In this document: positions 5,035-35,304 of the stretch, in pieces
Layout of the letters: the number at the start of each line of letters is the position of its first letter
Numbering within the stretch: the first letter of the stretch is position 1
DNA from: Pseudonocardia sp. KRD291
Lineage (GTDB): Bacteria; Actinomycetota; Actinomycetes; Mycobacteriales; Pseudonocardiaceae
Length of the DNA: 56,108 nt
Assembly (NCBI RefSeq): GCF_019263595.1
Contig: NZ_JADQDD010000005.1
Span: 1 to 56,108, forward strand
Direction: 5' to 3'
The notes under the pieces: generated by a model
Seen by the model: the letters and a program-made list of their open reading frames with translations, nothing else
Told to the model about the DNA's origin: nothing
The model's database searches: none
Program-made: the position numbers and the translations under genes

Positions 5035-6288
5035 ATGGGTGAAAGTACGACCCGGGTGGCGTTCATGCGCCGCTGTGACTCCGGCACTCAGTGGCGGGTT
5101 CGAGGGCGCCGAATGCCCCGGCCGCAGGAGGGCCAGGTCATCGACCTGCTGCTCGCCTCGCGCCGGCTGCTCGACCCGGGCACACTGCCCCATCCCGAGC
5201 ACGTCGTCGACCACCCGTCGGCCCGTGTCGTCCTGAAGGCGATCTGGGCGTCGGCCATGGCCACCCTCACGACTGGAACGAACAGCGTCTCGCCGGACCT
5301 CGTGCAGGTGCTGCAGGCGGTCAAGGAGCTCGACGAGAGACTCCTGCTCGACCAGATCGCCAGCCAGGACCGGGCACTGCAACGAGTGCGTGCCGCATTG
5401 GCGATGCTCGGCGAGACGAAGAGCTGCAGCACGCTGCTCGACACGGCGGCGACCACGGCCTGCAGTCTCGGCTTCGACCGCTCGATCGTCTCCCGGGTCG
5501 CGGACTCGCTCTGGATCCCGGAGCGGGTGCACGTGGACAAGGACGAGATGTGGGCGCGGGAGATCCTGGCCGTCGGGCGGAGCACTCCGCAGCAACTCAA
5601 CGGGTCGATCGTCGAGACGGAGATGGTCCGTCGGCGTACCTCGATCCTGGTCGACCAGGTACAGGACCGTCCCGGTGTGCACAAGGAGATCGCCGAGGCG
5701 TCGATGTCACGCAGCTACGCCGCGGCTCCGATCGTGGTGCACGGCGTGGTCGCCGGATTCGTCCACGTCGACTGCTACTACCAGCAGCGCAACGTGGACC
5801 AGCTCGACCGCCAGATCCTCACGATGTTCACCGAGGGCCTGGGGCAGGCGCTGACCCGCACGATGGTGCTCGACGAGCTCGGCACCATCCGCCGCGACGT
5901 CGACGAACTGTCCCGGCGTCTCGCCGCCGTGCGCGACGAGGGGGACTCGCGCGTGCTGTGGGGGCACGAGGACGACGTCGACGAGGCGCCCGGCGACATC
6001 CGGCGGTCGCGTCCGTCCGGTGGTGTCGACCACTTCCTCCGCTCGGCCCCGGTGGACCCGACATTGACCCGGCGCGAGGTCGAGGTGCTGCGACTGATGG
6101 CCGCGGGCGACACCAACTCCCGGATCGCAAGCCGCCTGGTGATCTCCGAGGGCACGGTGAAGTCCCACGTCAAGCACATCCTGCGCAAGCTTGGTGTGGC
6201 GAATCGGGCCGAGGCCGTATCGCACTGGCTGCGCAGTCGCCACGACGTGCAGCGAGAGCGCGTCCAGGCCGGCGACGGACGTCGCTGA
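5035..6288 (+). CDS. GAF-LuxR transcriptional regulator
   Basis: A 417-residue protein. The N-terminal 100 residues are unassigned, roughly 110-290 resemble a GAF sensor domain (with the SYAAAPIVVHGVVAGFVHV strand pair typical of the fold), and 345-405 is a LuxR/FixJ helix-turn-helix, LTRREVEVLRLMAAG through GTVKSHVKHILRKLGV. No receiver domain or phospho-Asp is visible, so it probably responds to a bound ligand rather than a kinase. ATG 5035 has GGAGGAGGA 5 bp upstream. It is the first gene of the island and lies directly before the mce operon, making it the obvious candidate regulator of uptake and catabolism. Target sites are unknown. Confidence 0.85.
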   Translation: MGESTTRVAFMRRCDSGTQWRVRGRRMPRPQEGQVIDLLLASRRLLDPGTLPHPEHVVDHPSARVVLKAIWASAMATLTTGTNSVSPDLVQVLQAVKELDERLLLDQIASQDRALQRVRAALAMLGETKSCSTLLDTAATTACSLGFDRSIVSRVADSLWIPERVHVDKDEMWAREILAVGRSTPQQLNGSIVETEMVRRRTSILVDQVQDRPGVHKEIAEASMSRSYAAAPIVVHGVVAGFVHVDCYYQQRNVDQLDRQILTMFTEGLGQALTRTMVLDELGTIRRDVDELSRRLAAVRDEGDSRVLWGHEDDVDEAPGDIRRSRPSGGVDHFLRSAPVDPTLTRREVEVLRLMAAGDTNSRIASRLVISEGTVKSHVKHILRKLGVANRAEAVSHWLRSRHDVQRERVQAGDGRR

Positions 6289-6293
6289 GAGCG

Positions 6294-6899
6294 ATGCCGA
6301 CCACGTCCGCGTCCGTGCCGGAACCGGTGCGGGCCTACCTCGACGAGCTCGACCGAGCCTCGGCAGGCCTGCCCCGCGACCAGCGCCAGGATCTACGAGC
6401 CCGGGTCTGGGCGGAGGTCGCCGAGGCAGCCGGCAGCGATCCGGCACCGGAGCGGATCGACGAGGCCCTGCGCCGGCTCGGCCCGCCCTCCGCGCTCGCC
6501 GGCACGGGGGGCCACGCCCTGCGTGACCCCCTCGTGGTCCACCTGCTCGGCTGCTCCCTGCTGACCTTCGGGATCGGCGGGGTGGCCGGGCTGGTCCGGG
6601 TGTGGCGCTCCCCCTCCTGGCCTCGTGTCGACGCGCTCGTCGCCACGCTCATGGTGGTGGTCGCGGGCGCCGTACTCCCGATGCTGGCTCCCGTGCACCC
6701 GATCGCCGGTGCGCTGCTCGGCGGGCTCGGAGTGGGCTCGTTACTCGCTGCGTGTGTGCTGGGAGGCCGGATGCTCATGGCCCGCCGCCGCGCCCGTCGG
6801 GCTCGCCGGACCTCCCCCGACGCAGATGCCGCTCCGCATACCCCCCGAGGGGGAGGCGGAACCGCCCCCAGCGGGAGGTGTGAGGACTCCTCTCGCTGA
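6294..6899 (+). CDS. HAAS-type integral membrane protein
   Basis: A 201-residue protein. Residues 1-65 look like a HAAS (DUF1700-like) helical domain: VRAYLDELDRASAGLPRDQRQ, then RIDEALRRLGPPSAL. Three hydrophobic helices follow (about 75-95, 105-125 and 130-150), then a basic RRRARRARR stretch and a disordered tail. HAAS proteins often accompany small transcription factors. Here the gene starts 6 bp after the LuxR stop with no space for a promoter, so it is co-transcribed and may tether or modulate that regulator. The role is inferred from position. Confidence 0.7.
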   Translation: MPTTSASVPEPVRAYLDELDRASAGLPRDQRQDLRARVWAEVAEAAGSDPAPERIDEALRRLGPPSALAGTGGHALRDPLVVHLLGCSLLTFGIGGVAGLVRVWRSPSWPRVDALVATLMVVVAGAVLPMLAPVHPIAGALLGGLGVGSLLAACVLGGRMLMARRRARRARRTSPDADAAPHTPRGGGGTAPSGRCEDSSR

Positions 6900-6979: not shown

Positions 6980-7852
6980 ATGAGCACGCCTGGGACGCTC
7001 GCCCAGCAGCCCGACAGGACGGCCGAAGTACCCCGCCGGTCGGCTAAGGGCTCCGGTACGCCGGGTCTGCTGAAGAAGATCGCCGACCCGTTCGTCACGG
7101 CCGGCGAGATGTGGCAGCTGATGGTCAAGGTGTTCGCCCTGGCCATCCGCAAGCCGGTCGGTTTCTGGGGAGACACCCGGGACCAGTGCTTCGACATCCT
7201 GAAGCTGACCTGGCTGCCGATGTCGCTGGCCGCGTTCGGGTTCGGGTTCGGGGCGCCGGGCCTCACCGGTGGCGCGATCTTCTACACCTTCGGCATCCCG
7301 TACCGCCTCGGCGCGTTCTTCGAGTTCGCGTCGGTCCGTGAGTTCGCTCCGTTCATCAACGGCATGGTCGTGGCCGGCGTCGTCGGGACGGCGATCACCG
7401 CCGACCTGGGAGCCCGCCGCATCCGGGACGAGATCGACGCCATGGAGGTCCTCGGCGTCGACCCGATCCGGACACTCGTCCTCCCGCGGGTGCTGGCCTG
7501 CACGATCATGACCGCGGTCCTGGACATCCTGGCTCTGGTCGTCGGTCTGGTCAGCGGCTACGTGGCCGCCGGCCCCATCTTCGACGCCAGCTACGCCGGC
7601 TACTACGGCTCGCTGTTCGATCTGCTCAACACGGTCGACATGTGGGGCAGCGTCGCGAAGTGCGCCCTCTACGGCCTGATCATCGGCGTCGTCTGCAGCT
7701 ACGTCGGGCTCAACGCCAAGGGCGGCCCGATCGGCGTCGGCAAGGCGGTCAACCAGGCGGTCGTCATCTCGTTCGCCGGGGTCTGGGTCATCAACTTCGT
7801 GTTCACGCTGACGATGCTCGGCCTGAACCCCCAGATGAGCGTCTACAAGTGA
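6980..7852 (+). CDS. yrbEA: MlaE/YrbE permease A of mce system
   Basis: A 290-residue ABC permease of the MlaE family with about five membrane helices after a roughly 50-residue cytoplasmic N-terminus. The family motif DEIDAMEVLGVDPI, which contacts the ATPase, is present near residue 152. It forms the inner-membrane channel with its partner at 7869 and delivers lipid from the MCE proteins to the cell. ATG 6980 is preceded by GAAGGAG. It is the first gene of the transport operon, separated by 80 bp from the HAAS gene, so a promoter may lie in 6900-6979. The letter A is assigned from gene order. Confidence 0.93.
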   Translation: MSTPGTLAQQPDRTAEVPRRSAKGSGTPGLLKKIADPFVTAGEMWQLMVKVFALAIRKPVGFWGDTRDQCFDILKLTWLPMSLAAFGFGFGAPGLTGGAIFYTFGIPYRLGAFFEFASVREFAPFINGMVVAGVVGTAITADLGARRIRDEIDAMEVLGVDPIRTLVLPRVLACTIMTAVLDILALVVGLVSGYVAAGPIFDASYAGYYGSLFDLLNTVDMWGSVAKCALYGLIIGVVCSYVGLNAKGGPIGVGKAVNQAVVISFAGVWVINFVFTLTMLGLNPQMSVYK

Positions 7853-7868
7853 GGGAGGTGCGGACGCC

Positions 7869-8753
7869 ATGACGATGCTCGACGACCGGGGTTCGGCACA
7901 GAACCCCGAGGACCCGGAGGAGCTCCGCGCTCCCGAGAAGCAGGGCGTCGACATCAGCTTCGGTTCGATCACCGGAAAGCTGAAGAGCGGCCTCACCGAG
8001 GCCGGCGACATCGGCCGCTTCACCGCCGACACCGTGCGGGACTTCCCCGACATGTTCCGGCGCTACGTGCCGGAGGTCTTCCGCCAGGCCGGCATTCTGA
8101 TCTTCAGTTCCGCCCTGATCATCTGGTTCATGATGTTCATCATGGGCGGGCAGTGCGGCTTGGAGGCCAGCTACACGCTCAAGCAGATCGGCGCCCCGCT
8201 CTACTCGTCGGTCTTCGACGCCTACTGCGGCCTGCGCGAGCTGTCGGTCTACATGTGGGGCTGGATCCTGGCCGCGAAGGTCGGCTGCGGCTACGTCGCG
8301 GAGATCGGTTCGATGCGGATCTCCGACGAGGTCGACGCCATGGAGGTCATGGGCATCAAGTCCAAGTCCTACCTGGTGGGGACACGGATCGCGGCCACGG
8401 TGATCGCGGTGCCGTTCATGTACGCGGTCGGCCTGGCCATCCTCTACTGCGCGATGTACCTGGTCACGGTCGTGAACCTGGGCGGCGTCTCGCCCGGTGG
8501 GTTCCTCTACCTGTTCTGGCTGTATCAGAGTCCGTACGACTCGATCGCGGTGATGACCAAGATCATGGTCGAGTCGATCGTGATCGTCGGTGTGGGTCTG
8601 TACTACGGCTACAACGCCAGCGGAGGCCCCGTCGGCGTGGGCCGCGCGACCGCCAAATCCATGATCATCAATCTCGTGCTGATCTCGGTCATCGGGACCA
8701 TCGGCACACTGGCCTTCTGGGGGCTCGAGACGAACTCTCCGATCGCCAACTGA
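7869..8753 (+). CDS. yrbEB: MlaE/YrbE permease B of mce system
   Basis: A 294-residue second MlaE-family permease, starting 16 bp after the first with GGGAGGTG upstream. The coupling motif DEVDAMEVMGIKSKSYL sits near residue 157, and the helices match the family. The N-terminal 75 residues are hydrophilic and longer than in a minimal MlaE. Paired YrbEA/YrbEB permeases are the norm for actinobacterial mce loci, whereas the proteobacterial Mla system uses one. A 342-bp gap follows before the ATPase gene. Confidence 0.93.
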   Translation: MTMLDDRGSAQNPEDPEELRAPEKQGVDISFGSITGKLKSGLTEAGDIGRFTADTVRDFPDMFRRYVPEVFRQAGILIFSSALIIWFMMFIMGGQCGLEASYTLKQIGAPLYSSVFDAYCGLRELSVYMWGWILAAKVGCGYVAEIGSMRISDEVDAMEVMGIKSKSYLVGTRIAATVIAVPFMYAVGLAILYCAMYLVTVVNLGGVSPGGFLYLFWLYQSPYDSIAVMTKIMVESIVIVGVGLYYGYNASGGPVGVGRATAKSMIINLVLISVIGTIGTLAFWGLETNSPIAN

Positions 8754-9095
8754 CGCCGGTCCGGCTCGCCGTCCCAGGGCGGACCGGACCTCCCCAAGGG
8801 CACCGCTACCGCGGCCCCCTGGATACCCGCCACGACGTTCCGGACGACTCCGAGCCGGACTCAGCTCTCCCGTTCGGCGCACGCTCCCCGCTCGCGCCGG
8901 ACGAACCGGGCGCACGTTCCCCGCCACCGCCCGGTCGCTCGACACCGGCGACGCTCCCCGCATCCCGCCGGTGCGTTCTCCCGGACCAGATGCGTCCACC
9001 CCACCCGGGCCCGGCTCCCCACGGGACGGCCCACCACCGCAGTGACCGTGTGCCGACGAAGGTCGGAACACGGCCGGTCGTCCCCAGGAGGATCA
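8754..9095. other. 342-bp gap inside the mce operon
   Basis: No credible gene lies here. The sequence is Pro/Arg-codon-like and GC-rich on both strands without a supported start. Every other junction in the operon overlaps or is at most 16 bp, so this gap is exceptional. It may contain an internal promoter for the ATPase and mceA-F, or the remains of a lost gene. Confidence 0.6.
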
Positions 9096-9980
9096 GTGAC
9101 CTCACCTCAGTACACGGGCTCGGATACCGAGTACCCCACCCAGGAGATTCCCAACCCGGTCGGCGGCGCGCAGCCCGCCCGCGGACCCGGCTGGTCGACC
9201 GAGACCCGGGAGTTCCGGCACGGGACCGACCCGATCCTGCAGGTGGAGGGGCTGGCCAAATCGTTCGGCAGCGCCGAGATTCTCAAGGACATCAATTTCA
9301 ACTTCCAGCACGACGCGATCACCACTGTGCTGGGGCCCTCCGGTACCGGAAAGTCGGTGCTGATCAAGCATCTCGTCGGCCTGCTGGCTCCCGACCGCGG
9401 CGCCGTCTACGTCGGCGGCGTCGACATCTGGTCGATGAGCGAGAACCAGCGTTACGACATGCGGACCCGCTTCGGCGTCTGCTGGCAGGACGGTGCGCTG
9501 TTCGGCTCGATGAACCTCTACGACAACGTCGCCTTCCCGCTGCGCAAGCACACGCGCAAGTCCGAGAAAGAGGTCGAGAAGACGGTCATGACCGCTCTCG
9601 ACGAGGTCGGTCTGGCGAAGGCGGCGCACAAGGCGCCGAACGAGGTCTCCGGCGGTATGAAGAAGCGGGCCGGGTTCGCCCGAGCGCTGGTGATGAACCC
9701 GGACATCGTGCTGTTCGACGAGCCGGACTCCGGCCTCGACCCGGTCCGCACCAGCCTGCTGTGCGACATCATCATGGACGTCCACAACCAGCACGGCGGG
9801 ACCTATCTGCTGGTCACGCACGACATCAAGACCGCTCGCAAGGTCAGCGACTACGTCGGCCTGATCTGGAAGGGCGAGGTGGTCCACTACGGGCCGGCGC
9901 ACGAGGCCTTCGAGCACCAGGACCCGTTCGTCAAGCAGTTCCTGGCAGGTCAGTCCGCCGGCCCGCTCGGGATGGACTGA
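9096..9980 (+). CDS. MlaF-type ABC ATPase of mce system
   Basis: A 294-residue ABC ATPase. All motifs are intact: Walker A GPSGTGKS (80-87), Q-loop in FGVCWQDGALFGSM, signature VSGGMKKR, Walker B VLFDEPDSGLD and the H-loop VTHD. The FxQxGALF-like Q-loop is typical of MlaF/Mkl proteins that power MCE transport. GTG 9096 is chosen over an upstream frame opening because AGGAGG sits 5 bp before it and the first 45 residues are disordered. In mycobacteria the Mkl ATPase is encoded away from mce operons; here it is built into the cluster, 4 bp ahead of mceA. Confidence 0.92.
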   Translation: MTSPQYTGSDTEYPTQEIPNPVGGAQPARGPGWSTETREFRHGTDPILQVEGLAKSFGSAEILKDINFNFQHDAITTVLGPSGTGKSVLIKHLVGLLAPDRGAVYVGGVDIWSMSENQRYDMRTRFGVCWQDGALFGSMNLYDNVAFPLRKHTRKSEKEVEKTVMTALDEVGLAKAAHKAPNEVSGGMKKRAGFARALVMNPDIVLFDEPDSGLDPVRTSLLCDIIMDVHNQHGGTYLLVTHDIKTARKVSDYVGLIWKGEVVHYGPAHEAFEHQDPFVKQFLAGQSAGPLGMD

Positions 9981-9984
9981 GCCG

Positions 9985-16673: not shown

Positions 16674-16686
16674 GAGGTGACCCACG

Positions 16687-21958: not shown

Positions 21959-22483
21959 TCAGGGGCGGACGCCGGACGGGCGCACCGGGTCGCCGTTCGG
22001 GGAGACCAGCATCCAGGTGCCACCGAACTCGACGGTCCCCTGGCCGGCGGTCGAGCCGGGTGCCGTGTCGCCGACGAAGCGGTGCAGCTGCCGACCGGCG
22101 TAGGTCACCTGCTCGCCGCCGGCGGCGGACGGCACGGTGCCGATCACGTCGGTGCGCAGCGCGTTCAGCGTGCCCTGTGCCGCGGCCGGGACGCCGTCGG
22201 CGGCGTAGAGGGGCCAGCGTTGTGCACACGGGCCACTACAGGCGGGTGCGGCGGTACCCACGCCGTCGGGCACGAGAGCGTAGAGGGCGCGGCCCTGGCC
22301 ATCGGCCAGGACGAGCCCGGCCGTCGACCGGGTGACGGCCAGCGTGGTGTCGGCGCCGGAGGCGGTGAACGCCGGCTGCGTGGTGGCCGGTCGGTCCGTC
22401 GAACAGCCGGACAGCAGGCCCAACGCGGCGACGAGCGCGGCCGGGAGCCGCAGAGCGGCGGGCATCGTGCAGGGAGCGGGCAT
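21959..22483 (-). CDS. Secreted-repeat lipoprotein (COG4315-like)
   Basis: A 174-residue lipoprotein. Its signal sequence ends in the lipobox LLSGC. The mature part carries two repeats of the type seen in COG4315 proteins: GLVLADGQGRALYAL followed by CSGPCAQRWPLY, and VTYAGRQLHRFVGD. A paired-Cys CSGPC and a W-P-L motif are conserved in that family, whose function is unknown; some members sit near redox or heme genes. ATG 22483 (GAGAGGA upstream) gives a slightly long signal peptide; ATG 22465 is an alternative. It shares the strand of, and lies 53 bp after, the ATPase gene at 22537. Confidence 0.75.
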   Translation of the reverse strand: MPAPCTMPAALRLPAALVAALGLLSGCSTDRPATTQPAFTASGADTTLAVTRSTAGLVLADGQGRALYALVPDGVGTAAPACSGPCAQRWPLYAADGVPAAAQGTLNALRTDVIGTVPSAAGGEQVTYAGRQLHRFVGDTAPGSTAGQGTVEFGGTWMLVSPNGDPVRPSGVRP

Positions 22484-22536: not shown

Positions 22537-23475
22537 TCAGCGCAGCAGGAGGATCAGGACCCAGGTGGTGACCAGGGCGACCGCGGCGACCGCGAACACG
22601 ATCGCTCTCGTGTCGATCTCGAACACCCGCCGCCGGTCGCCGTCGGTCCCGAGTGCGGCCTCGGCGTCGGAGAGGCGGGGTGGGCCCATGAAGTCCGAGA
22701 GCCGGAACCGCCGGTCGAACTCGTCGCCGGTCTCCACCCCGCGTAGCAGCTCCGCGGCCGGGCCGGTGGCCACGATGCGACCGTTGCACAGCACGGCCAG
22801 GGTGTCGCCGAGGGTGCGCGCCAGGGCGACGTCGTGAGTGGTGACGAGCATGGTGGCGCCGGTGCGTTCGTGTTGTTCGCGCAGCGCCGCGATCACCCGC
22901 GGGGTGTGCGCGGCGTCCAGGCTGGTCTCGATCTCGTCGAGCACCACCAGCGGCGCCTCTACGGCCAGGGCGCGGGCGAGCGCCAAGCGCTTGCGGGCGT
23001 GCGCGGGCAGCTCGGACGGCATTGCGGTGGGTCGGTCGTCGAGGCGCATCTCGCGCAGACGCCGCATGATCAACGCTTCCTGGTCGGACTTCGGTATCCC
23101 GCGCTCGCCCAGGCCGTAGCCGACGTTGTCGTAGGCCGAGAGCGAGGCGAACAGGGAGGCGTCGAACAGGGACGAGCCGCCGAGCAGCACGCTCATCCCA
23201 CGCCGGATCCGGCGCAGCCCGGGCTCACCGGCGGTCCACACGTCGTCGTCGCCGACGCTGATCCGTCCCGCGTTCGGGGGGAACAGGCCGGCGAGGTGGC
23301 GGACCAGCGTCGTCTTCCCGGATCCGGACGGCCCCATCAGGACGGTGATGGCGCCCGGCTCGAGCCGCAGGCCGAGCCGGAGCAGGATCGGGGTGTCGTC
23401 CAGAACCGTGGTGACCCCGCTGAACTCGACCGCGGGCCCCACGGTCGGGCCCCGTCCGGGGGGTGCTGCGGGCAT
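22537..23475 (-). CDS. Degenerate MlaF-like ABC ATPase with C-terminal membrane helix
   Basis: A 312-residue protein with overall MlaF/ABC ATPase layout. Walker A GPSGSGKT (48-55) is intact and the H-loop TTHDVA is present. Two catalytic motifs are altered: the Q-loop reads MSVLLGGSSLFDASL, without Gln, and the signature LSGGQ is replaced by ELPAHARKR. Walker B is VVLDEIETSLD. An extra C-terminal segment ends in a membrane helix (AIVFAVAAVALVTTWVLILLL). Conserved ATP binding with a broken signature suggests slow hydrolysis or a regulatory, asymmetric partner for the intact ATPase at 9096. ATG 23475 is preceded by AGGAGAGG. Confidence 0.8.
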   Translation of the reverse strand: MPAAPPGRGPTVGPAVEFSGVTTVLDDTPILLRLGLRLEPGAITVLMGPSGSGKTTLVRHLAGLFPPNAGRISVGDDDVWTAGEPGLRRIRRGMSVLLGGSSLFDASLFASLSAYDNVGYGLGERGIPKSDQEALIMRRLREMRLDDRPTAMPSELPAHARKRLALARALAVEAPLVVLDEIETSLDAAHTPRVIAALREQHERTGATMLVTTHDVALARTLGDTLAVLCNGRIVATGPAAELLRGVETGDEFDRRFRLSDFMGPPRLSDAEAALGTDGDRRRVFEIDTRAIVFAVAAVALVTTWVLILLLR

Positions 23476-24480: not shown

Positions 24481-24521
24481 GCCGCGGGTCCGTTGGGGGC
24501 AGGGAACCACCCCTGCGGAGC

Positions 24522-24567
24522 GATGTCGGGGCCGGTCGACCTCACGACGATGTCTGGGTCGGTCGAC
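24522..24567 (+). promoter_or_regulatory. Tandem direct repeats upstream of acyl-CoA synthetase
   Basis: GATGTCGGGGCCGGTCGAC (24522-24540) and GATGTCTGGGTCGGTCGAC (24549-24567) differ at two of 19 positions and are spaced 27 bp apart, start to start. They lie 15-60 bp ahead of GTG 24583 and could be paired binding sites for an activator. The first copy overlaps a GGAGCGATGT word also found before the SCP2 gene. Confidence 0.45.
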
Positions 24568-24582
24568 GTCGAAGGAGAATCC

Positions 24583-26133
24583 GTGTTCCCAGGAACCCAC
24601 GCGCGCACGCACCCGGACAAGCCGGCCGTGATCGCCCCCGAGTCGGGGCGCACCCTGACCTACGCCGAGCTCGACGACCGGTCGCGCCGGCTGGCCCACG
24701 TGTTGCACGAGGCCGGACTGCGCCGCGGCGATCACATCGCGTTCCTCTCCGACAACGCCCCCGAGGTGTTCGAGGTCTACTGGGCCGCGCTGCGCTCGGG
24801 GCTCTACGTCACGGGGGTCAACCACCACCTCTCCGCCGACGAGGCGACCTACATCCTCGGCGACTGCGGGGCCCGGGCGCTGGTCGCCTCGGCAGCGGTC
24901 GCCGAGCTGGCGGAGGCCGTGTCCTCGCAGGTACCGGCGGTGGACAGGCGGCTCGCCTTCGGCGGCGCGGTGACGGGGTTCGACGACTACGACGCGGTCC
25001 TGGGCGCCGCCCCGGACGGCCCGTTGCCCGACGAGCCGCGCGGTGCCGACATGCTGTACTCCTCCGGCACCACCGGACGTCCCAAGGGGATCAAGCCGGC
25101 CCTGCCGGACCGGCAGGTGGACGAGCCCGGAGACCTTTACACCGCGGTGTTCGGCCCGATGTACGCCTTCGGTGACGACACCGTCTACTACTCCCCGGCG
25201 CCGGTCTACCACGCGGCGCCGCTGCGGTTCGGCGGGATCGTCCACGCCCTCGGCGGCACCGTGGTGATGCCGCAGCGCTTCGACGCGGAGGCCGCGCTGT
25301 CGGCGATCGGGACCTACGGCGTCACGCACAGCCAGTGGGTGCCGACCATGTTCGTGCGGATGCTCAAGCTCCCGGACGAGATCCGGGAGAAGGCGGACGT
25401 GTCGTCGCTGCGGGTCGCGATCCACGCCGCCGCGCCGTGCCCCGTGGACGTGAAGCAGAAGATGATCGACTGGTGGGGCCCGATCCTGAACGAGTACTAC
25501 TCGTCGACCGAGGGCAACGGCGTCACGCTGATCGACTCGGCGCAGTGGCTCAACCGGCCCGGATCGGTCGGAAAGGCGGGTCTCGGCGTCATCCACATCT
25601 GCGACGACGACGGTACGGACCTGCCGGCCGGCGAGGTCGGCACCGTCTACTTCGAACGCGAGAACGTCGCGTTCGAGTACCACAACGATCCGGAGAAGAC
25701 CCGCGAGGGACAGCACCCGGGGCACGAGAACTGGTCCACCACCGGCGACGTCGGCTACCTCGACGACCAAGGCTACCTGTTCCTCACCGACCGCAAGGCT
25801 TTCATGATCATCTCTGGTGGGGTGAACATCTACCCGCAGGAGGTCGAGGACTGCCTGGCCCTGCATCCGAAGGTCTTCGACGTCGCCGTCATCGGCGTCC
25901 CGGATCCGGAGATGGGCGAGCAGGTCAAGGCCGTCGTACAGCCGACCGACGGTGTCCTGGACGGCCCGGAGCTGGCCGACGAACTGCTCGCGTTCGTCCG
26001 CGAGCGGATCGCGCACTACAAGGCCCCCCGCAGCGTGGACTTCGTGGAGACGCTCCCGCGCACTGCCACCGGCAAGCTCGTCAAGCACGAGCTGCGGCGT
26101 CGCTACCGCGAGCCCTCGACCGCCCTCGGTTGA
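24583..26133 (+). CDS. Acyl-CoA synthetase (AMP-forming, FadD-type)
   Basis: A 516-residue adenylate-forming enzyme. It carries the phosphate loop YSSGTTGRPKG near residue 158, the adenine motif EYYSSTEGNG, the hinge region TGDVGYLDDQGYLFLTDRK and the C-terminal catalytic lysine motif PRTATGKLVK. It activates a carboxylic acid to its acyl-AMP and then acyl-CoA. GTG 24583 is chosen for its GAAGGAG site 7 bp upstream and because homologous proteins begin near FPGTHARTHPDKPAV; upstream in-frame codons lack such sites. It opens the catabolic block and would activate the acid made by the P450-ADH-ALDH steps. Confidence 0.9.
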   Translation: MFPGTHARTHPDKPAVIAPESGRTLTYAELDDRSRRLAHVLHEAGLRRGDHIAFLSDNAPEVFEVYWAALRSGLYVTGVNHHLSADEATYILGDCGARALVASAAVAELAEAVSSQVPAVDRRLAFGGAVTGFDDYDAVLGAAPDGPLPDEPRGADMLYSSGTTGRPKGIKPALPDRQVDEPGDLYTAVFGPMYAFGDDTVYYSPAPVYHAAPLRFGGIVHALGGTVVMPQRFDAEAALSAIGTYGVTHSQWVPTMFVRMLKLPDEIREKADVSSLRVAIHAAAPCPVDVKQKMIDWWGPILNEYYSSTEGNGVTLIDSAQWLNRPGSVGKAGLGVIHICDDDGTDLPAGEVGTVYFERENVAFEYHNDPEKTREGQHPGHENWSTTGDVGYLDDQGYLFLTDRKAFMIISGGVNIYPQEVEDCLALHPKVFDVAVIGVPDPEMGEQVKAVVQPTDGVLDGPELADELLAFVRERIAHYKAPRSVDFVETLPRTATGKLVKHELRRRYREPSTALG

Positions 26134-26718: not shown

Positions 26719-27774
26719 ATGGCGACGATGAAGGCGGTCGTGCTTCGCGAGCCGCACAAGATCGAGGTCATGGACGTTCCGAAGCCGGAGATCACCGATC
26801 CCGGTGACGTCCTGATGCGGGTCGACCTCACCGCGATCTGCGGGACCGACCTGCACCCGTTCGAGGGCCGGATCGTGATCGAGGACGACGTGATCCTCGG
26901 TCACGAGTTCCTCGGCACGATCGAGGCCGTCGGCTCCGGCGTCAACCTGGTCTCCGAGGGAGACCGGGCGGTCGCCTCCTGCGTCGTGAGCTGCGGTTCC
27001 TGCTACACCTGCCGCCGCAACCGGCCCGGTCAGTGCCTCGGCACGATGATCTTCGGTCTGGGGCTGACGTTCGGCAGCCTGTCCGGCGGTCAGGCCGAGT
27101 ACGTGATCGTGCCGAACGCCGACCGCACCCTGCGCAAGCTGCCCGAGGCAGGCAAGGGCACCGACGAGGACAAGCTCTTCGTCGGCGACATCATGGCGAC
27201 CGGCTACGAGGCCGTCCGGAAGTTCATCCAGCCCGGCGACACCGTCGCGGTGGTCGGGGCCGGCCCCGTCGGTCTGTGCGCCGCGATGGCCGCGAACGTG
27301 CTCGGCGCCTCGCAGACGATCGTCGTGGACAAGGTCGGTGTCCGACTCAAGGAGGCTGAGGCGATCGGCGCGATCCCGGTGAACGCGACCGAGACCGACC
27401 CGGCCGAGGCCGTGCAGGATCTCACCGACTGGCGCGGCGCCGACGTCGTCATCGACGCCGTCGGGCATCCGTCGGCGCTGCTGTCGGCCTGCTCGCTGGT
27501 GCGCTCCGGCGGTGCGATCTCGATCCCCGGCGTCTACACCGAGGACTCCATCGAGCTGCCGTTCGGCGACCTCTACCTCAAGGGCGTCACCATCGCCCAG
27601 GGCGTCGCGAACATCACCAACTACATGGACGAGACGCTGGCCCTGATCGGAGCGGGCAAGCTCGACCCCAGCCGGTTCATCTCGCACCGGATGCCGATGA
27701 CCGAGGCCGCCGAGGCCTACCGGATGTTTCACGAGCACGAGGCCACCAAGATCGTCCTGGACCCCACCGCATGA
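26719..27774 (+). CDS. Zinc-dependent alcohol dehydrogenase
   Basis: A 351-residue medium-chain dehydrogenase. Catalytic zinc ligands are in ICGTDLH and GHEFLG. The structural zinc site is the four-Cys set within CVVSCGSCYTCRRNRPGQC. The NAD(P)-binding loop VVGAGPVGLCA follows in the second half. It would oxidise the primary alcohol made by the P450 to the aldehyde. AAGGAGG is 8 bp ahead of ATG 26719. The stop overlaps the aldehyde dehydrogenase start (ATGA at 27771), so consecutive steps are coupled at translation. Confidence 0.9.
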   Translation: MATMKAVVLREPHKIEVMDVPKPEITDPGDVLMRVDLTAICGTDLHPFEGRIVIEDDVILGHEFLGTIEAVGSGVNLVSEGDRAVASCVVSCGSCYTCRRNRPGQCLGTMIFGLGLTFGSLSGGQAEYVIVPNADRTLRKLPEAGKGTDEDKLFVGDIMATGYEAVRKFIQPGDTVAVVGAGPVGLCAAMAANVLGASQTIVVDKVGVRLKEAEAIGAIPVNATETDPAEAVQDLTDWRGADVVIDAVGHPSALLSACSLVRSGGAISIPGVYTEDSIELPFGDLYLKGVTIAQGVANITNYMDETLALIGAGKLDPSRFISHRMPMTEAAEAYRMFHEHEATKIVLDPTA

Positions 27775-29294
27775 CGGCCGGGACGACCGTCCGCCACTTC
27801 CCAATGCTGATCGGCGGGAAGGCGGTCGACGGCGAGAACGTCCTGGAGATCCGGGACCCGCAGAACGACGAGCTGGTCGCCACCGCGGCGTCCGGCGGCG
27901 CCTCCGCGATCGACGCCGCCGTGGACGCGGCACGGGCCTCCTTCGACGACGGCGGATGGTCCCGGGCCACGCCCGCGCACCGCTCGCAGGTGCTGCACGC
28001 CATCGCCGACAAGCTGGGCGAGCAGATCGAGGAACTGGTCGAGCTGGAGATCATGGCCAACGGCGCCACGGTGCGTCAGGCCACCGGATTCCACGTCGGC
28101 TACGCGGCGCCGCACCTGGCGTACTTCGCCGACCTCGCGGCCCGCTACGAGTTCGAGACGCCGATGCCGCGGGCCAGTTTCCCGGTGCTCGGGCAGTCGA
28201 CGATGCGCCGTGAGCCGATCGGCGTGGTCGGAGCGATCGCGCCGTGGAACTTCCCCCTGCTGCTGGCGCTGTGGAAGTTCGCCCCGGCACTGGCCGTGGG
28301 CAACTCCGTGGTGCTCAAGCCGGATGAGAAGACGCCGCTGACCTCGCTGGAGTTCGGGCGGATCGCCGAGGAGTGCGGCCTGCCGCCGGGCGTGTTCAAC
28401 GTCGTCCCGGGCCCCGGGCCGGACGCCGGGGCGCGCCTGGCCTCGCACCCGGGTGTCGGGAAGATCGGGTTCACCGGGTCCACCGACATCGGCCGCGAGA
28501 TCATGCGCCTGGCCTCGGGCACGGTGAAGGCGGTGACCCTGGAGCTCGGCGGCAAGTCGCCTGCCCTGGTCCTCGACGACGCCGACATCGACCTCGCGGT
28601 GGACGGCGTGCTCTACGGCTCGATGCTCTACTCCGGACAGATCTGCGAGTCGATGACCCGCCTGCTGCTGCCGGACTCGATCCACGACGAGTTCGTGGAG
28701 CGGCTCCTCGAGCGGGCCTCGACGATCCAGCTCGGCGACACCCGGGACTGGGACACGGACATGGGTCCCGTCGTATCGGCCCGCCAGCATTCTCGGATCC
28801 TCGACTACATCGAGTCCGGTAAGGCAGAGGGCGCCACTCTTGCCCTCGGCGGCAGGGTCCCCCAGGGCGAACGGTTCGAGCGCGGTCACTGGATCGAGCC
28901 GACGATCTTCACCGGCGTGTCCAACGACATGCGGATCGCCCGCGAGGAGATCTTCGGGCCGGTGCTGTCGGTGATCCGCTACGGCAGCGAGCCAGAGGGC
29001 GTGGCACTGGCCAACGACACCGAGTACGGACTCGCGTCCTCGGTGTGGAGCACGGACAACTCGCGTGCCCTGGAGGTGGCGGAGAAGATCCAGGCCGGAT
29101 CGGTCTGGATCAACGACTCGCACCAGATCAACTGTGAGGTGCCGTTCGGCGGCTACAAGCAGAGTGGGGTGGGCCGCGAGCTCGGGCCCCACGCACTCGA
29201 CCCGTTCACCGAGGTGAAGAACGTGCACCTCGACCTGTCGAACCGCCGCGACGCGCGTCCGTACGACGTACTGCTCAGCCACGCGGACGACTGA
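27771..29294 (+). CDS. Aldehyde dehydrogenase family protein
   Basis: A 507-residue NAD(P)-dependent aldehyde dehydrogenase. The general-base Glu lies in VTLELGGKSP, the nucleophilic Cys in SGQICESMTR, and the cofactor loop in GFTGSTDIGREI. APWNFPLLLALWKFAPAL is also typical. It would convert the aldehyde to the acid consumed by the CoA ligase at 24583. It shares an overlapping start with the alcohol dehydrogenase and is followed by a 13-bp-stem terminator. Confidence 0.92.
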   Translation: MTAGTTVRHFPMLIGGKAVDGENVLEIRDPQNDELVATAASGGASAIDAAVDAARASFDDGGWSRATPAHRSQVLHAIADKLGEQIEELVELEIMANGATVRQATGFHVGYAAPHLAYFADLAARYEFETPMPRASFPVLGQSTMRREPIGVVGAIAPWNFPLLLALWKFAPALAVGNSVVLKPDEKTPLTSLEFGRIAEECGLPPGVFNVVPGPGPDAGARLASHPGVGKIGFTGSTDIGREIMRLASGTVKAVTLELGGKSPALVLDDADIDLAVDGVLYGSMLYSGQICESMTRLLLPDSIHDEFVERLLERASTIQLGDTRDWDTDMGPVVSARQHSRILDYIESGKAEGATLALGGRVPQGERFERGHWIEPTIFTGVSNDMRIAREEIFGPVLSVIRYGSEPEGVALANDTEYGLASSVWSTDNSRALEVAEKIQAGSVWINDSHQINCEVPFGGYKQSGVGRELGPHALDPFTEVKNVHLDLSNRRDARPYDVLLSHADD

Positions 29295-29305
29295 GCTCCC
29301 GTAGC

Positions 29306-29344: not shown

Positions 29345-29375
29345 ATCTCAACAGACGGATGACGGCCCGTCGGCC

Positions 29376-29463: not shown

Positions 29464-29530
29464 CGATACACGACCCGCTCCGGCCCGCCCGGCGGCGCAG
29501 GACCGATCACCGGTCTACCCAGGAGGATGC

Positions 29531-30865: not shown

Positions 30866-30867
30866 TC

Positions 30868-31068
30868 ATGAGTCTTCAGGTCGTACTGGACCAGGACAAG
30901 TGCAGCGGTCTCGGGCTGTGTGAGGCCGAGGCGCCGGAGATCTTCGAGGTGCGCGAGGACGGATCGCTCGCGGTGCTGGACGAAACCCCGGCAGACGAGC
31001 ACCGAATGGCTTGCGAGGCCGCTGTCGCCGCCTGCCCGACCGAAGCCCTGAGGCTCATCGAGAGTTGA
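30868..31068 (+). CDS. 3Fe-4S ferredoxin, P450 partner
   Basis: A 66-residue ferredoxin. Cluster ligands are visible as CSGLGLC (C-x5-C) near the N-terminus and Cys-Pro in AACPTEAL near the end, with the middle Cys of a 4Fe site absent, as in 3Fe-4S P450 ferredoxins. ATG 30868 has GGAGA 8 bp upstream inside the P450 end; GTG 30862 is an alternative overlapping start. It passes single electrons from the reductase at 31157 to the P450. A hairpin follows the stop, so the reductase may be expressed at a lower level. Confidence 0.88.
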   Translation: MSLQVVLDQDKCSGLGLCEAEAPEIFEVREDGSLAVLDETPADEHRMACEAAVAACPTEALRLIES

Positions 31069-31093
31069 CCGCGGCTCCCCACGCGGTCCCACC

Positions 31094-31127
31094 GCCCCGG
31101 TCTCCGGCCCCCGACGGAGACCGGGGC
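31094..31127 (+). terminator. Hairpin between ferredoxin and ferredoxin reductase
   Basis: GCCCCGGTCTCCG (31094-31106) pairs exactly with CGGAGACCGGGGC (31115-31127) around eight bases, followed by CTCGTCTTG. It could stop or attenuate transcription between the two electron-transfer genes. Confidence 0.7.
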
Positions 31128-31156
31128 GCTCGTCTTGCAGAAAGGAGGGCCCCGCG

Positions 31157-32374
31157 ATGACCGTGGACCATCTCGTCGTCGTCGGTGCTTCGCTGGCCGG
31201 GATCCGGGCTGTCGAGTCGGCACGCAAAGCCGGTCACACCGGGCGGATCACGCTCGTCGGCGCGGAGGAGCACCTGCCCTACGACCGGCCACCCCTGTCC
31301 AAGGCGTTCCTGGAGGCGTCCGAGGAAGCGCCGGCCGACCCTCGTTTCCGTACCGAGGAACACCTGCGCGACGAGCTGGGAGTCGAGCTGCGCCTCGGCG
31401 CCCCCGCCACCGGGTTGGATCCGAAGGCCCGCCTGATCGCTCTGGACGACACCGAGATCGGCTATGACGCGCTGGTGGCGACGACGGGAGGGACGGCGCG
31501 CCGGCTTCCCGGCACCGACGGGATCGCCGGAGTACACACGTTGCGGACCTGGGACGACGCCGTCGCCGTCCGCTCGGCGTTGGACGCGGGTGCGCGCACC
31601 GTTGTGATCGGGGCCGGATTCATCGGCTCCGAAGTCGCCAGCGCAGCCCGTAAGCGCGGCCTGCCGGCCACCGTCGTCGAGTCGCTCCCCGTGCCGCTGG
31701 TCCGGTCCGTGGGTGAAGACATGGGACATGCCTGCGCGTATCTGCACAGAGCGCACGGGACCGACCTGTTCTGCGGGGCCACCGTGCTGTCTCTCGAGCA
31801 GGTCGACGGTCGGGTGACCGGCGTACGGCTGGGCGACAGGAGCACGGTTCCGGCCGATCTGGTCGTCGTCGGGATCGGGGTGGACCCGAGCACCGGGTGG
31901 TTGGAGGGATCCGGGCTCGAGGTGCACGAACGCGACCACGGCGTGGTCGCCGACGCGACATTGCGCTGCGCGGACGGGGTGTACGCCGCCGGCGACGTGG
32001 TGCATTTCCCGAACAAGCTGTTCGACGGGGAGATGATGCGCCTCGAGCACTGGACGACGGCCGCCGAGCAGGGAGCCCTCGCCGCTCGCAATGCGCTGGA
32101 CCCGGACCACGCCACCGAACTCGGCACGGTCCCCTACTTCTGGTCGGACTGGTACGGAAGCCGCATCCAGTTCGTCGGTCGTCCGCAGGCCGACGAGATC
32201 CGAGTGATCAGCGCCGAGACCGGCGACGCGCGGTTCCTCGCCCTGTACCGGAGGGCGGACCGGCTCGTCGGCACGATCACCATCGACCGGCCGACCCAGA
32301 TCATGAAGTACAAGCGACTGATCGCGACGCGGGCGAGCTGGGCCGAAGCGCTGGAGTTCGCAGGGGTCGGCTGA
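31157..32374 (+). CDS. FAD-dependent ferredoxin reductase
   Basis: A 405-residue flavoprotein of the putidaredoxin/rubredoxin reductase type. It has an N-terminal FAD loop VVVGASLAGIRA, the LPYDRPPLSK motif, a second dinucleotide loop VVIGAGFIGSEVA for NADH, and VYAAGDVVHFPN for the flavin. The C-terminal domain begins near WSDWYGSRIQFVG. AAAGGAGG precedes ATG 31157. It completes the three-component P450 system with the genes at 29531 and 30868. Confidence 0.92.
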   Translation: MTVDHLVVVGASLAGIRAVESARKAGHTGRITLVGAEEHLPYDRPPLSKAFLEASEEAPADPRFRTEEHLRDELGVELRLGAPATGLDPKARLIALDDTEIGYDALVATTGGTARRLPGTDGIAGVHTLRTWDDAVAVRSALDAGARTVVIGAGFIGSEVASAARKRGLPATVVESLPVPLVRSVGEDMGHACAYLHRAHGTDLFCGATVLSLEQVDGRVTGVRLGDRSTVPADLVVVGIGVDPSTGWLEGSGLEVHERDHGVVADATLRCADGVYAAGDVVHFPNKLFDGEMMRLEHWTTAAEQGALAARNALDPDHATELGTVPYFWSDWYGSRIQFVGRPQADEIRVISAETGDARFLALYRRADRLVGTITIDRPTQIMKYKRLIATRASWAEALEFAGVG

Positions 32375-32475: not shown

Positions 32476-33312
32476 TCAGGACGGGTCGACGAAGAAGTCG
32501 AGCTCCGGGTCGGGCCCGCCGCCGTACGCGGAGAAGTCGGTGACACCCGCCTCGCTCAGCACATCGACGTCGATGAAGGTCTCGCCCGTCCGGCCGGCGG
32601 GTAGCTCCAGCACCGCGAGCGCAGCGTCCGCCATGATCTCGGGCGACCGTGCGCGGGATGCCGCGTCCCCGCCGCCCAGCAGGTTGACCACGGCAGCGGT
32701 GGCGATCGTGGTCTGCGGCCACAGGCAGTTCGCGGCGATGCCGTCCTCCGCGAACTCGGCCGCCCAGCCGAGCGTCAGCAGGGTCATGCCGTACTTCGAC
32801 AGCATGTACGCCGGAAATCTGCCGAGCCAGTGCGGTGCGAGGTTGATGGGCGGTGAGAGCGTGAGTACGCGGGCGCGATCGGAGGCGCGCAGGTGTGGCA
32901 GTGCGCTGGTGGTGAGAAGGAACGTTCCGCGCGAGTTGATCTGTTGCATCAGGTCGTAGCGCTTCGGGGTCAGCTCGGAGGAACCCGCGAGGTTGAGGGC
33001 GCTGGCGTTGTTCAGCACGACGTCGATGCCACCGAAGCGATCAGCGGCGGCATTCACCGCTCGCTCGACGTCTTCCGGGTTCCGCACGTCCCCGACGACC
33101 GCCAGCCCCTTACCTCCGACCTCCTCGATCTGCTGGACGGCGGTGTGCACCGTGCCCGGCAATCGCGGATCCGGCTCGTCGGTCTTGGCGAACACCGCGA
33201 TGTTCGCACCTCGCCGGGCAGCGGCCAATGCGACTGCCAGGCCGATGCCGCGGCTGCCTCCTGACATGAGGATCGTTCGTCCGGTCAGTACATCGGTCGA
33301 GGTGTCGTTCAC
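32476..33312 (-). CDS. HSDL2-like short-chain dehydrogenase
   Basis: A 278-residue SDR. The cofactor loop is GGSRGIGL, the motif NNASALNL follows at about 100-107, and the active-site pair is in PAYMLSKYG (Tyr near 167, Lys near 171). The segment FAKTDEPDPRLPGTVHTA and the block LTLSPPINLAPHW are characteristic of the HSDL2 (hydroxysteroid dehydrogenase-like 2) group, associated with peroxisomal or lipid metabolism. It may oxidise a hydroxyacyl intermediate. It is downstream of the tetR gene on the same strand, and an operator copy lies 40 bp before its start. Confidence 0.85.
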   Translation of the reverse strand: MNDTSTDVLTGRTILMSGGSRGIGLAVALAAARRGANIAVFAKTDEPDPRLPGTVHTAVQQIEEVGGKGLAVVGDVRNPEDVERAVNAAADRFGGIDVVLNNASALNLAGSSELTPKRYDLMQQINSRGTFLLTTSALPHLRASDRARVLTLSPPINLAPHWLGRFPAYMLSKYGMTLLTLGWAAEFAEDGIAANCLWPQTTIATAAVVNLLGGGDAASRARSPEIMADAALAVLELPAGRTGETFIDVDVLSEAGVTDFSAYGGGPDPELDFFVDPS

Positions 33313-33351: not shown

Positions 33352-33367
33352 CAGTCAAGCCTGACTG
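33352..33367. promoter_or_regulatory. TetR operator copy 1: CAGTCA-N4-TGACTG
   Basis: A perfect inverted repeat CAGTCA-AGCC-TGACTG that overlaps the stop codon of the tetR gene and lies 40 bp before the SDR start. The same half-sites with the same 4-base spacing recur at 35341-35356 before the acyl-CoA dehydrogenase. Confidence 0.8.
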
Positions 33368-34020
33368 TTTTTCGACCGGTCTCCGGTCTCGACGCCGAGT
33401 CGCTCACGGGCCATCCGCCGCCACATCGGCAGGTGTGGGTCGGATACCGGATCTCTGTGGCTCAACGTGTAGGTGATCGCTACGCCCCGCATGCTGGTGA
33501 ACAGCAGCTCGCGCGTCTCGGGGAACGCCGGGTGGCTGCTGTGCACGGGGCCGAACATCGTCGCGACGACGTGCTCGATGGCGGTGCCCAGGCGCTGTTC
33601 TTCGGGCTGCAGGCTGCGGCGAATCTCGTCGTTCGTGCGAGCCACCGTCCAGAGTTCCATCGCCGCCCAGAAGTAGGGCTGCCGGAAGGTCTCCCAGAGA
33701 AGCTCTGTCGCGCGGTCGACCCGTTCGACACCGTGCGTGCGCCCGTAGCTCGACTGGGTGACCCACTGCTCCATCTCGGCGATCCGCTCGCCTGCGAGAT
33801 GCTGTGAGGCGGCCACGAGCACTGCCTCCCGGGACGGGAAGTGATGGAGGAGCCGACCACGTGAGACGCCGGCTCGTTCCTGGATGGTCACGGTGGTGGT
33901 CCCCGCGTAGCCGGACTCGACCAGAAGCTCCACGGCGGCATTCAGGATCAGTGCGCGGCTGCTCGCACTCCGTTCGCCCTGCGTCCGTCGAGCGAGGGGT
34001 CCGTTCGGAGCAGCGGCCAT
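33355..34020 (-). CDS. TetR/AcrR-family repressor
   Basis: A 221-residue regulator. The N-terminal helix-turn-helix region (about 20-65) reads SRALILNAAVELLVESGYAGTTT, then RAGVSRGRLLHHFPSREAVL; the rest is a helical ligand-binding domain with several Trp/Phe (ETFRQPYFWAAMELW) suited to a hydrophobic acyl ligand. It sits between the acyl-CoA dehydrogenase and SDR genes, each preceded by a CAGTCA-N4-TGACTG site, so it most likely represses both and responds to a pathway acyl-CoA or sterol. ATG 34020 gives a short disordered head. Confidence 0.88.
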   Translation of the reverse strand: MAAAPNGPLARRTQGERSASSRALILNAAVELLVESGYAGTTTVTIQERAGVSRGRLLHHFPSREAVLVAASQHLAGERIAEMEQWVTQSSYGRTHGVERVDRATELLWETFRQPYFWAAMELWTVARTNDEIRRSLQPEEQRLGTAIEHVVATMFGPVHSSHPAFPETRELLFTSMRGVAITYTLSHRDPVSDPHLPMWRRMARERLGVETGDRSKNSQA

Positions 34021-34065
34021 GCGGACAACGATATCCGCGTCGTCGGTACGAAGTCGGGCCGCTGT

Positions 34066-35304
34066 TCAGCCGGTGACGTCGCGGCCGATCAGTGTGCGGG
34101 CGACGATCCACTGCTGAAGCTCGTTCGCGCCCTCGAAGATCTCCAAGATCTTGGCGTCTCGGAACATCTCCTCCAGCCGCACCGACTCTCCGCTCTCGGA
34201 GACTCGGCGGGCGAAGCCGAGTGCCCCGTGAATCTGGATCGCCTCACGGACCAGGTCGTTGGCCAACTTCGTGCCGTAGGCCTTGGCCATCGCGGCCTCC
34301 GGCTCTGCCGAGCGGTCGCCGCGATCGAGGAGGGTGGCTGCCTTCTGGTAGAGCGTGCGCGCGCACTCGATCTCGGTGGCGCGCTGCGCCATCGTGAACT
34401 GCCAGTGCTGCATCGCGCCGAGTGGTCCTCCGAACACCTGGCGTGTTCGCAGGCGTTCGACGGCCAGGTCGAGCGCGGCCTGGGCGACGCCGACACCGGC
34501 TGCGCCGATCCCGATCCGGCCGCGCACGAGCGCGGACAGTGCGACGCCGAGCCCCGCTCCCGGCTGCCCGAGCAGATTCGACCGGGGGACGTGTACGTTC
34601 TCGAAGACGATGTCGGCGGTGATCTGGCCACGGTGGCCCATCTTCAGATCCGGTGTCCCGATCCGCACGCCGGGCGACGACAGGTCGACCAGCAGCATGT
34701 GCGCGCGGTCGCTGTCGGCTCCGGCCCGGACCAGTACCGAGACCCAACCCGCGACGACGCTGTTGGTGATCCAGCGCTTGCGACCGTTGACGACGAAGCC
34801 GTCGGGGGCCTCCTCGGCGACGGTCTGCATCCGCTCGGCGGTGAGGTCGGAGCTGGTCTCCGGCTCGGTCGTGGCGAACGAGAACGCGACCCGGCCGGAG
34901 GTGAGCTCGGGGATCAACCGCGCACGCAGGTCCTCACTGGCGAACGCGAGCGTCTGCGGGACCAGGATGCACTGACCATCGAAGACTCCGGCCATCGACG
35001 AAGAGTGATAGGCGATCTCCTCGGTGACCGTGCACGTGCCGAGCATGGGGAACTCGAGCCCCCGGCCGAAGTCCGATCCGAACGGGACGGCGAACAGTCC
35101 CTCGTCGGCCAGACCGCGGAACGCGTCCCAGGGAAAGGAGTCAGCAGACTCCTCGCGCGAACCGATCTCGCGGGCGAACGGGACCAGGCGCTTCTCGACG
35201 GCTGCGCGAGCCTCGCTGCGCAGTGCGACGGTTTCCTCCGGCAGCCAGACGTCGTGGGTCATCCGGTCCTGGGTCCGGGGGACGGTCGAGTCGATGGTCG
35301 TCAA
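34066..35304 (-). CDS. Acyl-CoA dehydrogenase
   Basis: A 412-residue flavoenzyme with the three ACAD domains. FAD/substrate motifs SFATTEPETSSDL and RKRWITNSVVAGW are in the middle, and the C-terminal helical domain carries QIHGALGFAR and FRDAKILEIFEGANELQQ, in which Glu of the IFEGAN motif is the usual catalytic base. It introduces the alpha-beta double bond in an acyl-CoA. It heads the leftward unit ACAD-TetR-SDR (46 bp, then 42 bp spacings) behind operator copy 2. Confidence 0.92.
   Translation of the reverse strand: MTTIDSTVPRTQDRMTHDVWLPEETVALRSEARAAVEKRLVPFAREIGSREESADSFPWDAFRGLADEGLFAVPFGSDFGRGLEFPMLGTCTVTEEIAYHSSSMAGVFDGQCILVPQTLAFASEDLRARLIPELTSGRVAFSFATTEPETSSDLTAERMQTVAEEAPDGFVVNGRKRWITNSVVAGWVSVLVRAGADSDRAHMLLVDLSSPGVRIGTPDLKMGHRGQITADIVFENVHVPRSNLLGQPGAGLGVALSALVRGRIGIGAAGVGVAQAALDLAVERLRTRQVFGGPLGAMQHWQFTMAQRATEIECARTLYQKAATLLDRGDRSAEPEAAMAKAYGTKLANDLVREAIQIHGALGFARRVSESGESVRLEEMFRDAKILEIFEGANELQQWIVARTLIGRDVTG

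Follow-up and report, generated by a model that had tools for sequence, protein, structure and literature searches.

A tRNA-Thr genomic island in Pseudonocardia sp. KRD291 that carries an Mce importer beside a CYP268-type P450 oxidation cassette

The DNA analysed here, called the window below, is a stretch of 56,108 nucleotides from Pseudonocardia sp. KRD291 (assembly GCF_019263595.1, contig NZ_JADQDD010000005.1, positions 1 to 56,108). Between positions 5035 and 35304 it holds the genes of an Mce-type importer together with those of a cytochrome P450 (P450) oxidation pathway (Table 1). A sequence-only reading of the same DNA had proposed that these genes form, in one island, a complete system that imports and oxidises a hydrophobic substrate. 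Profile scans found the parts it had named all in place: the mce importer, the P450 and its reductase, an alcohol dehydrogenase (ADH), an aldehyde dehydrogenase (ALDH), an acyl-coenzyme A (CoA) ligase, an acyl-CoA dehydrogenase, a short-chain dehydrogenase/reductase (SDR) and two regulators. Its list lacked an MMPL/HAE3 transporter of the resistance-nodulation-division (RND) type, a SurA-like peptidyl-prolyl isomerase (PPIase), a second ATPase, a lipoprotein and several small membrane proteins.

The word island proved to be literally right. Comparison of the window with itself uncovered a 186-bp direct repeat (95% identical) that brackets every gene marked in the earlier reading. Because this repeat of the tRNA-Thr 3' end stands on both sides, the gene set is, on the sequence evidence, a horizontally acquired genomic island at tRNA-Thr. 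Extra copies of tRNA-Thr 3' fragments, 5 to 148 kb downstream of the gene, occur in four of the nine relatives searched (twice in G173, and in G082, G176 and G154; such numbers are our handles for related genomes), as expected of an insertion site that has been used repeatedly. The tRNA-Thr near holB looks like an insertion hotspot. The island is patchily distributed among relatives and lies at different sites. The closest relative by HolB among 17 (G176, 91%) has no P450 match at E 1e-150, while the HolB proteins of the island carriers G139, G050, G154 and G202 are only 75-83% identical to that of the window. No tRNA was seen within the 40 kb read around the island copies of these four carriers, and flank DNA is common to G050 and G154 only, in a comparison made without the left flank of G202. 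No tyrosine integrase (PF00589) was found on the window's contig, with 17 matches elsewhere in the genome, and serine recombinases were not searched for; by this tyrosine-integrase test the acquired island is not self-mobile. GC content does not set the island apart, and six border open reading frames (ORFs) gave no Pfam match.

The DNA to the right of the island is less orderly. A FecB-like gene found there has a match in 15 of 17 other genomes, never near holB (in G202 it is on a different contig from holB), and none in the other two. The distance from the tRNA to sequence that matches the window rightward of about 41.65 kb is 9.3 kb in G139, 34 kb in G154 and 84 kb in G157. The matching right-hand DNA of G176 starts at about 39.4 kb of the window and 53 kb from the tRNA, that of G050 is inverted and 107 kb away, and the pieces on the tRNA's side in G162 begin about 21 kb beyond it. 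Since the distances from tRNA to right flank differ among relatives, the region beside tRNA-Thr appears to be variable, 9 to 84 kb by match positions, with no clean empty site.

The importer operon (6980-21894) reads yrbEA, yrbEB, ATPase, mceA-F, MMPL/HAE3, PPIase and a small membrane protein, and its widest intergenic gap, before the chosen ATPase start, is 288 bases. Two YrbE and six Mce proteins are thus encoded in one operon, the composition of an actinobacterial Mce transporter, and each MceA-F protein has one N-terminal transmembrane segment (TM). The first ATPase has the MlaF model NF008809 as its top NCBIfam match, though below the cut-off of that model, and contains the Walker A, VSGG and FDEP motifs. 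The loops of the two YrbE proteins read DEIDA and DEVDA, with Asp replacing the first Glu of the EExDA motif described in the available part of an mce survey (PMC1810536). The second ATPase keeps Walker A, has LPAH in place of the signature and lacks the Q-loop glutamine. This degeneracy is shared, with small differences, by the window, G139, G050 and G042; a hydrophobic tail similar to the C-terminal TM of the window's protein is found in G139 and G050. At E 1e-45 the second ATPase was met in 3 of 298 genomes of the order (seven candidates scored per genome), and relatives of 41-53% identity stand at other MMPL-type operons. A role for it as a fixed partner of mce was considered and dropped, a 49% identical relative in G163 having no mce in view.

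A second plus-strand block (24493-32374) encodes the acyl-CoA synthetase, SCP2, ADH, ALDH, the P450, a ferredoxin and the reductase. The SCP2 protein matches PF02036 only weakly by itself (E 8.7e-4, just under the Pfam cut-off), but its relatives bear out the assignment that the sequence-only reading had made: 24 of 25 aligned match PF02036 at E 0.01 or better. The predicted fold (mean predicted local distance difference score, pLDDT, 88) agrees, matching solved SCP2 structures with a best E of 5e-7, UbiJ-SCP2 ahead of eukaryotic SCP2 and alkylsulfatase SCP2-like domains. By family and predicted fold, then, the product of 26281-26685 is supported as a putative SCP2 carrier. The claim that the P450 has a ferredoxin of its own also held up, in that the 68-residue ORF at 30862-31068, presumably a ferredoxin by its cysteine pattern, has relatives beside other P450s.

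Table 1. Features of the island and its borders in the window.
Feature	Position	Strand	Basis or remark
tRNA-Thr (CGT), insertion site	4276..4350	+	ARAGORN; intact copy in 9/9 relatives searched
Left direct repeat (tRNA-Thr 3' part and downstream sequence)	4307..4491	+	177/186 columns identical to 36046-36231
LuxR/GAF regulator	5035..6288	+	GerE E 6e-21, GAF
YrbEA permease	6980..7852	+	PF02405 E 1.7e-54
YrbEB permease	7869..8753	+	PF02405 E 4.1e-48
MlaF/Mkl-type ATPase, motifs intact	9042..9980	+	NCBIfam, motif reading
mceA-F	9985-11271, 11268-12656, 12653-14014, 14014-15360, 15357-16673, 16687-18150	+	six MlaD matches over cut-off
MMPL/HAE3 RND transporter, 800 aa	18147..20549	+	TIGR00921 E 3e-35 (below cut-off); PF03176 over cut-off; 11 hydrophobic stretches
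SurA-like PPIase	20546..21685	+	PF13145 and others over cut-off
Small membrane protein, 70 aa	21682..21894	+	two hydrophobic stretches; conserved in G139, G050, G042
Lipoprotein with secreted repeat	21959..22477	-	PF03640 E 1.8e-14
Second MlaF-like ATPase, degenerate signature and Q-loop, C-terminal TM	22537..23475	-	profile matches, motif reading
Two small membrane proteins	23621-24094, 24094-24480	+	four hydrophobic stretches each; conserved in G139, G050, G042
Acyl-CoA synthetase	24493..26133	+	closest models PRK13390 and FadD4, both below cut-off
Putative SCP2 lipid carrier, 134 aa	26281..26685	+	PF02036 matches of relatives, predicted fold
Zinc ADH	26719..27774	+	PF08240, PF00107
ALDH	27771..29294	+	PF00171 E 5e-166
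CYP268-type P450	29531..30865	+	PF00067; 51.1% to CYP268A2
Ferredoxin (presumed), 68 aa	30862..31068	+	relatives beside other P450s
Ferredoxin reductase	31157..32374	+	PF07992, PF14759
HSDL2-like SDR	32476..33312	-	PRK08278 382.6 bits, cut-off 250
TetR regulator	33355..34020	-	PF00440 E 3e-13
Acyl-CoA dehydrogenase	34066..35304	-	PF00441, PF02770, PF02771
Right direct repeat	36046..36231	+	self-comparison

Do the two halves of the island belong together? The sequence-only reading had asked whether homologues of both ever occur together in other genomes; they do, as a block in G139, G050, G154, G202 and G042 and rearranged in Protofrankia coriariae. Within the genus, 8 of 62 genomes match the P450 at E 1e-150 or better, and in five of these, the window's included, the match is at least 78% identical. 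The gene order is the same in all five (window, G139, G050, G154 and G202): the LuxR gene comes first, then the importer operon, the ligase, SCP2, ADH, ALDH, the P450, its ferredoxin and last the reductase. The SDR and the acyl-CoA dehydrogenase are less constant: the window and G202 have both, G139 has only the dehydrogenase, and for neither gene is there a close relative in the stretches of G050 and G154. Extra genes separate ALDH from P450 in G202, which yielded neither a TetR nor a lipoprotein match; luciferase-like monooxygenases and an ecdysteroid-kinase-like protein lie inside or beside its copy (L194 5764-6807, 9921-12112). In G042, of another genus, the block is interrupted by about 5 kb of added DNA between ligase and SCP2, the LuxR gene has moved, and the reductase, TetR, SDR and acyl-CoA dehydrogenase are without match in view; the rearranged block of Protofrankia has no ADH match. 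In the MMPL and MceF trees the window pairs with G139, and this pair is joined by G202 and next by G042; the P450 tree recovers the same group with G042 next (support 86), the window branching first within the group. Mean identities to the window for transport and catabolic proteins are 86 and 84% in G139, 84 and 83% in G050, 83 and 81% in G154, and 76 and 80% in G202. Because the order of the block is kept at sites whose flanks mostly lack homology, these comparisons support the view that the importer and oxidation halves behave as a unit and travel together. The importer and the enzymes probably also work together, since relatives share the set.

Linkage of CYP268-like P450s to mce extends beyond the island. 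The genome (6.57 Mb) has two mce operons, with four YrbE matches and with 12 MlaD matches divided equally between two contigs. The second operon, on contig C54, is oriented away from a neighbouring SCP2 gene and CYP268-like P450 (51%), and similar pairs occur in several congeners; its YrbEA, YrbEB, ATPase and SCP2 are 93-97% identical to those of a Pseudonocardia metagenome-assembled genome (L135). In a family sample of 150 genomes, among the matches listed, 13 of 29 P450s at least 45% identical to the window's lie near mce, nine of them within 10 kb, whereas none of 37 less similar P450s (34-44%), hand-chosen from the matches listed and with shorter flanks than the island members, lies within about 10 kb of a YrbE or MceA-F match. 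Fisher tests of these contrasts give 3e-6 and, at 10 kb, 3e-4, both nominal since the rows are related. On a tree of 73 P450s, 22 of them mce-linked, the linkage label changes six times, at least four of these on well-supported branches, while shuffled labels average 19 changes; this tree took 31 of 80 named loci, hand-chosen to include all four that have mce.

The operons themselves are of several types. The MMPL protein was found at E 1e-60 in 8 of 298 genomes of the order, in each case adjoining mceF, and in seven also the PPIase gene (the eighth is cut off by a contig end). Among regions of 16 to 44 kb, some of them incomplete, MMPL-type operons found without using the P450 include a P450 in 4 of 10 cases (24-32% identical to the window's) and an SCP2 match in 5 of 10; for operons of the second type, found by YrbE, the counts are 5 and 10 of 10, and for mce operons of the other type 2 and 0 of 6. 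In G174 (L213 11987-17827) a sister MMPL-type mce region carries, in place of the CYP268 cassette, an ADH, a ribonucleotide-reductase-small-chain-like protein, an FAD reductase and a P450.

The nearest solved structure to the window's P450 is CYP268A2 of Mycobacterium marinum (PDB 6bld), with 209 of 409 residues identical; CYP124 and CYP125 score lower. The E value is 2e-137 for CYP268A2, 6e-91 for a CYP125 'MRCA' construct, and 7e-66 or weaker for natural CYP125s. P450s of more than 40% identity are placed in one CYP family, and those below 55% probably in different subfamilies; the window's enzyme is thereby a member of the CYP268 family, probably in another subfamily than CYP268A2. Reportedly, CYP268A2 oxidises branched and isoprenoid compounds, and because the two enzymes are 51% identical, the earlier list of possible substrates (sterol, isoprenoid or branched lipid) would seem to narrow to the last two, with a sterol not favoured.

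We have moderate confidence, then, that the acquired island lets its host import, and begin to oxidise, an exogenous lipid of methyl-branched or isoprenoid type. MceA-F would carry the lipid across the envelope to the YrbEA/YrbEB permease, with the MlaF-type ATPase driving import and the RND and SurA-like proteins assisting. Inside the cell, SCP2 would hand the lipid to the P450, which, with its own ferredoxin and reductase, would hydroxylate a terminal methyl group. The ADH and ALDH would then yield the acid and the ligase its CoA ester, and the acyl-CoA dehydrogenase would start beta-oxidation, which chromosomal enzymes must finish; the LuxR/GAF and TetR proteins would regulate the pathway. 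All steps up to the enoyl-CoA are encoded on the island, and to that extent the order of chemistry proposed earlier (alcohol, aldehyde, acid, CoA ester) is borne out. Enzymes for the later steps of beta-oxidation were not seen on the island, so that 'import and oxidise' is supported and 'complete' is not.

Several observations weigh against this reading, and some of them suggest instead that the mce operon and the P450 catabolic operon are chance neighbours that share an island and serve different substrates. Neither an enoyl-CoA hydratase nor a thiolase was found among the island ORFs scanned, and the assignment of the substrate leans on the reported activity of an enzyme only 51% identical. 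P450s without mce and MMPL-type mce operons without P450 both occur: the stretches read around P450s 64-73% identical to the window's in G163, G194 and G200 (two) hold no mce, that of G194 starting 3.6 kb before the P450 on a short contig; six of the ten MMPL-type operons found without using the P450 have none; and only 4 of 80 named loci with CYP268-like P450s have mce in the flank, so that mce linkage is not a rule of the whole P450 family. Moreover, transport and catabolic halves diverge unequally from the window in G042 (49 and 73%) and Protofrankia (51 and 65%). Against mere neighbourhood stand, on the other hand, the one gene order kept in five genomes of the genus with most flanks lacking homology, and the clustering of the linkage on the P450 tree, beside differently built operons. 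The conserved order and the contrast of 13 in 29 with 0 in 37 set the idea of chance linkage back, and we regard it as unlikely.

Two further explanations accept that the halves cooperate. In one, the island serves a sterol, with Mce4-like import, oxidation of the sterol side chain, and degradation of the rings by enzymes encoded elsewhere. SCP2, the HSDL2-like SDR and a P450 related to CYP124 and CYP125 would all suit such a system. The sequence-only reading had argued that, for want of ring-degradation genes, only a chain may be oxidised; this is not supported, as KshA_C has two matches above cut-off on other contigs of the genome (C491:14117-14743 and C1:104325-104951), and attack on steroid rings by the host is thus possible. 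The P450 is nevertheless closer to CYP268A2 than to any CYP125 entry, and no KstR was recognised at the locus, the TetR protein scoring 24.1 bits on the KstR model against a cut-off of 280; both findings set the sterol reading back. In addition, the P450s of Mycobacterium neoaurum that were expressed include CYP268F2, and of 24 the available part of that study names as sterol-active only members of CYP125, CYP142 and CYP124, which by implication leaves CYP268F2 inactive on sterols (PMC13254585). A sterol system is therefore improbable in our judgement. In the other explanation, the island makes or remodels an envelope lipid and moves it outward. The operon does hold an RND transporter and a PPIase, and MMPL proteins often export lipids. 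Yet the ALDH, CoA ligase and acyl-CoA dehydrogenase follow a degradative order, no synthase or acyltransferase was seen in scans of the island, and Mkl ATPases are placed in an importer clade in the accessible text of the mce survey (PMC1810536). Export thus seems very unlikely, and import followed by oxidation is the reading compared with known systems below.

The mce4 genes of Mycobacterium tuberculosis lie in one cluster with cyp125 and cyp142. In this mce4/KstR cholesterol cluster, according to the part of the source available, an Mce importer works with a P450 that oxidises a terminal methyl, followed by CoA ligation, much as proposed here; it differs in its sterol substrate, in using CYP125 and CYP142 rather than a CYP268-type enzyme, and in an ATPase unlinked to the cluster (PMC6678751), whereas the window has a linked ATPase and the added MMPL and PPIase. 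Actinomycete mce operons with a linked Mkl-type ATPase share the two yrbE and six mce genes, but in those described in the excerpt of PMC1810536 the ATPase lies upstream, as it also does in the second operon of this genome; in the window it separates yrbEB from mceA, and mceF is followed by MMPL and PPIase.

The closest published parallel is MmGI-1 of Mycobacterium massiliense, an island of about 111 kb with an mce operon (MMASJCM_0985-0992), whose genes 1027-1033 are described, in the portion of the report available, as a 134-residue lipid-class protein, FadD, a P450, a 3-alpha-hydroxysteroid dehydrogenase, an ALDH, a 63-residue protein and a ferredoxin reductase (PMC4263727). By analogy with the window, we infer that the 134-residue protein may be an SCP2 and the 63-residue protein a ferredoxin. 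The likeness is one of gene descriptions only. MmGI-1 is much larger, has thiolases and enoyl-CoA hydratases, and separates its mce operon from the P450 cassette by about 38 kb, and the same portion of the report mentions neither a tRNA border nor an MMPL or PPIase gene next to mce (PMC4263727). An mce operon and a similar P450 cassette on one island are thus already in print, and the earlier statement that known mce4 loci have their P450s elsewhere is not supported. In our searches of open-licence papers we saw none linking CYP268 with mce, nor did these searches turn up the MMPL-PPIase operon type, the tRNA-Thr site or the repeated CYP268 linkage. The KRD291 island is real, conserved and mobile, and was partly foreseen in print; its substrate is predicted and the coupling of import to oxidation putative.

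A broader proposal can be put forward only tentatively. Operons with the ATPase between yrbEB and mceA, RND and SurA-like partners and, often, a second, degenerate, membrane-anchored ATPase (the two ATPases may form an asymmetric pair) could represent a distinct class of Mce importer that evolved as the uptake partner of exchangeable P450 cassettes for oxidation and spreads on islands, and many mce loci might then be substrate-specific import-and-oxidise units. We give this proposal slightly lower weight because, when MMPL-type operons were collected without using the P450, only four of ten showed P450 linkage. Most mce importers still lack an assigned substrate, and an importer and an oxidation cassette on one island offer a way to find them: the substrate of the P450, purified and screened, would predict the cargo of the importer. 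The RND transporter, PPIase and degenerate ATPase at mce operons likewise provide testable ideas on how Mce systems outside mycobacteria cross the envelope.

Two minor features lie outside the island. An MFS (major facilitator superfamily) transporter fused to a thymidylate-kinase-like domain (416-2458) adjoins holB, and a short direct repeat of about 110 bases (88%), which contains an inverted repeat, lies at 47354-47902.

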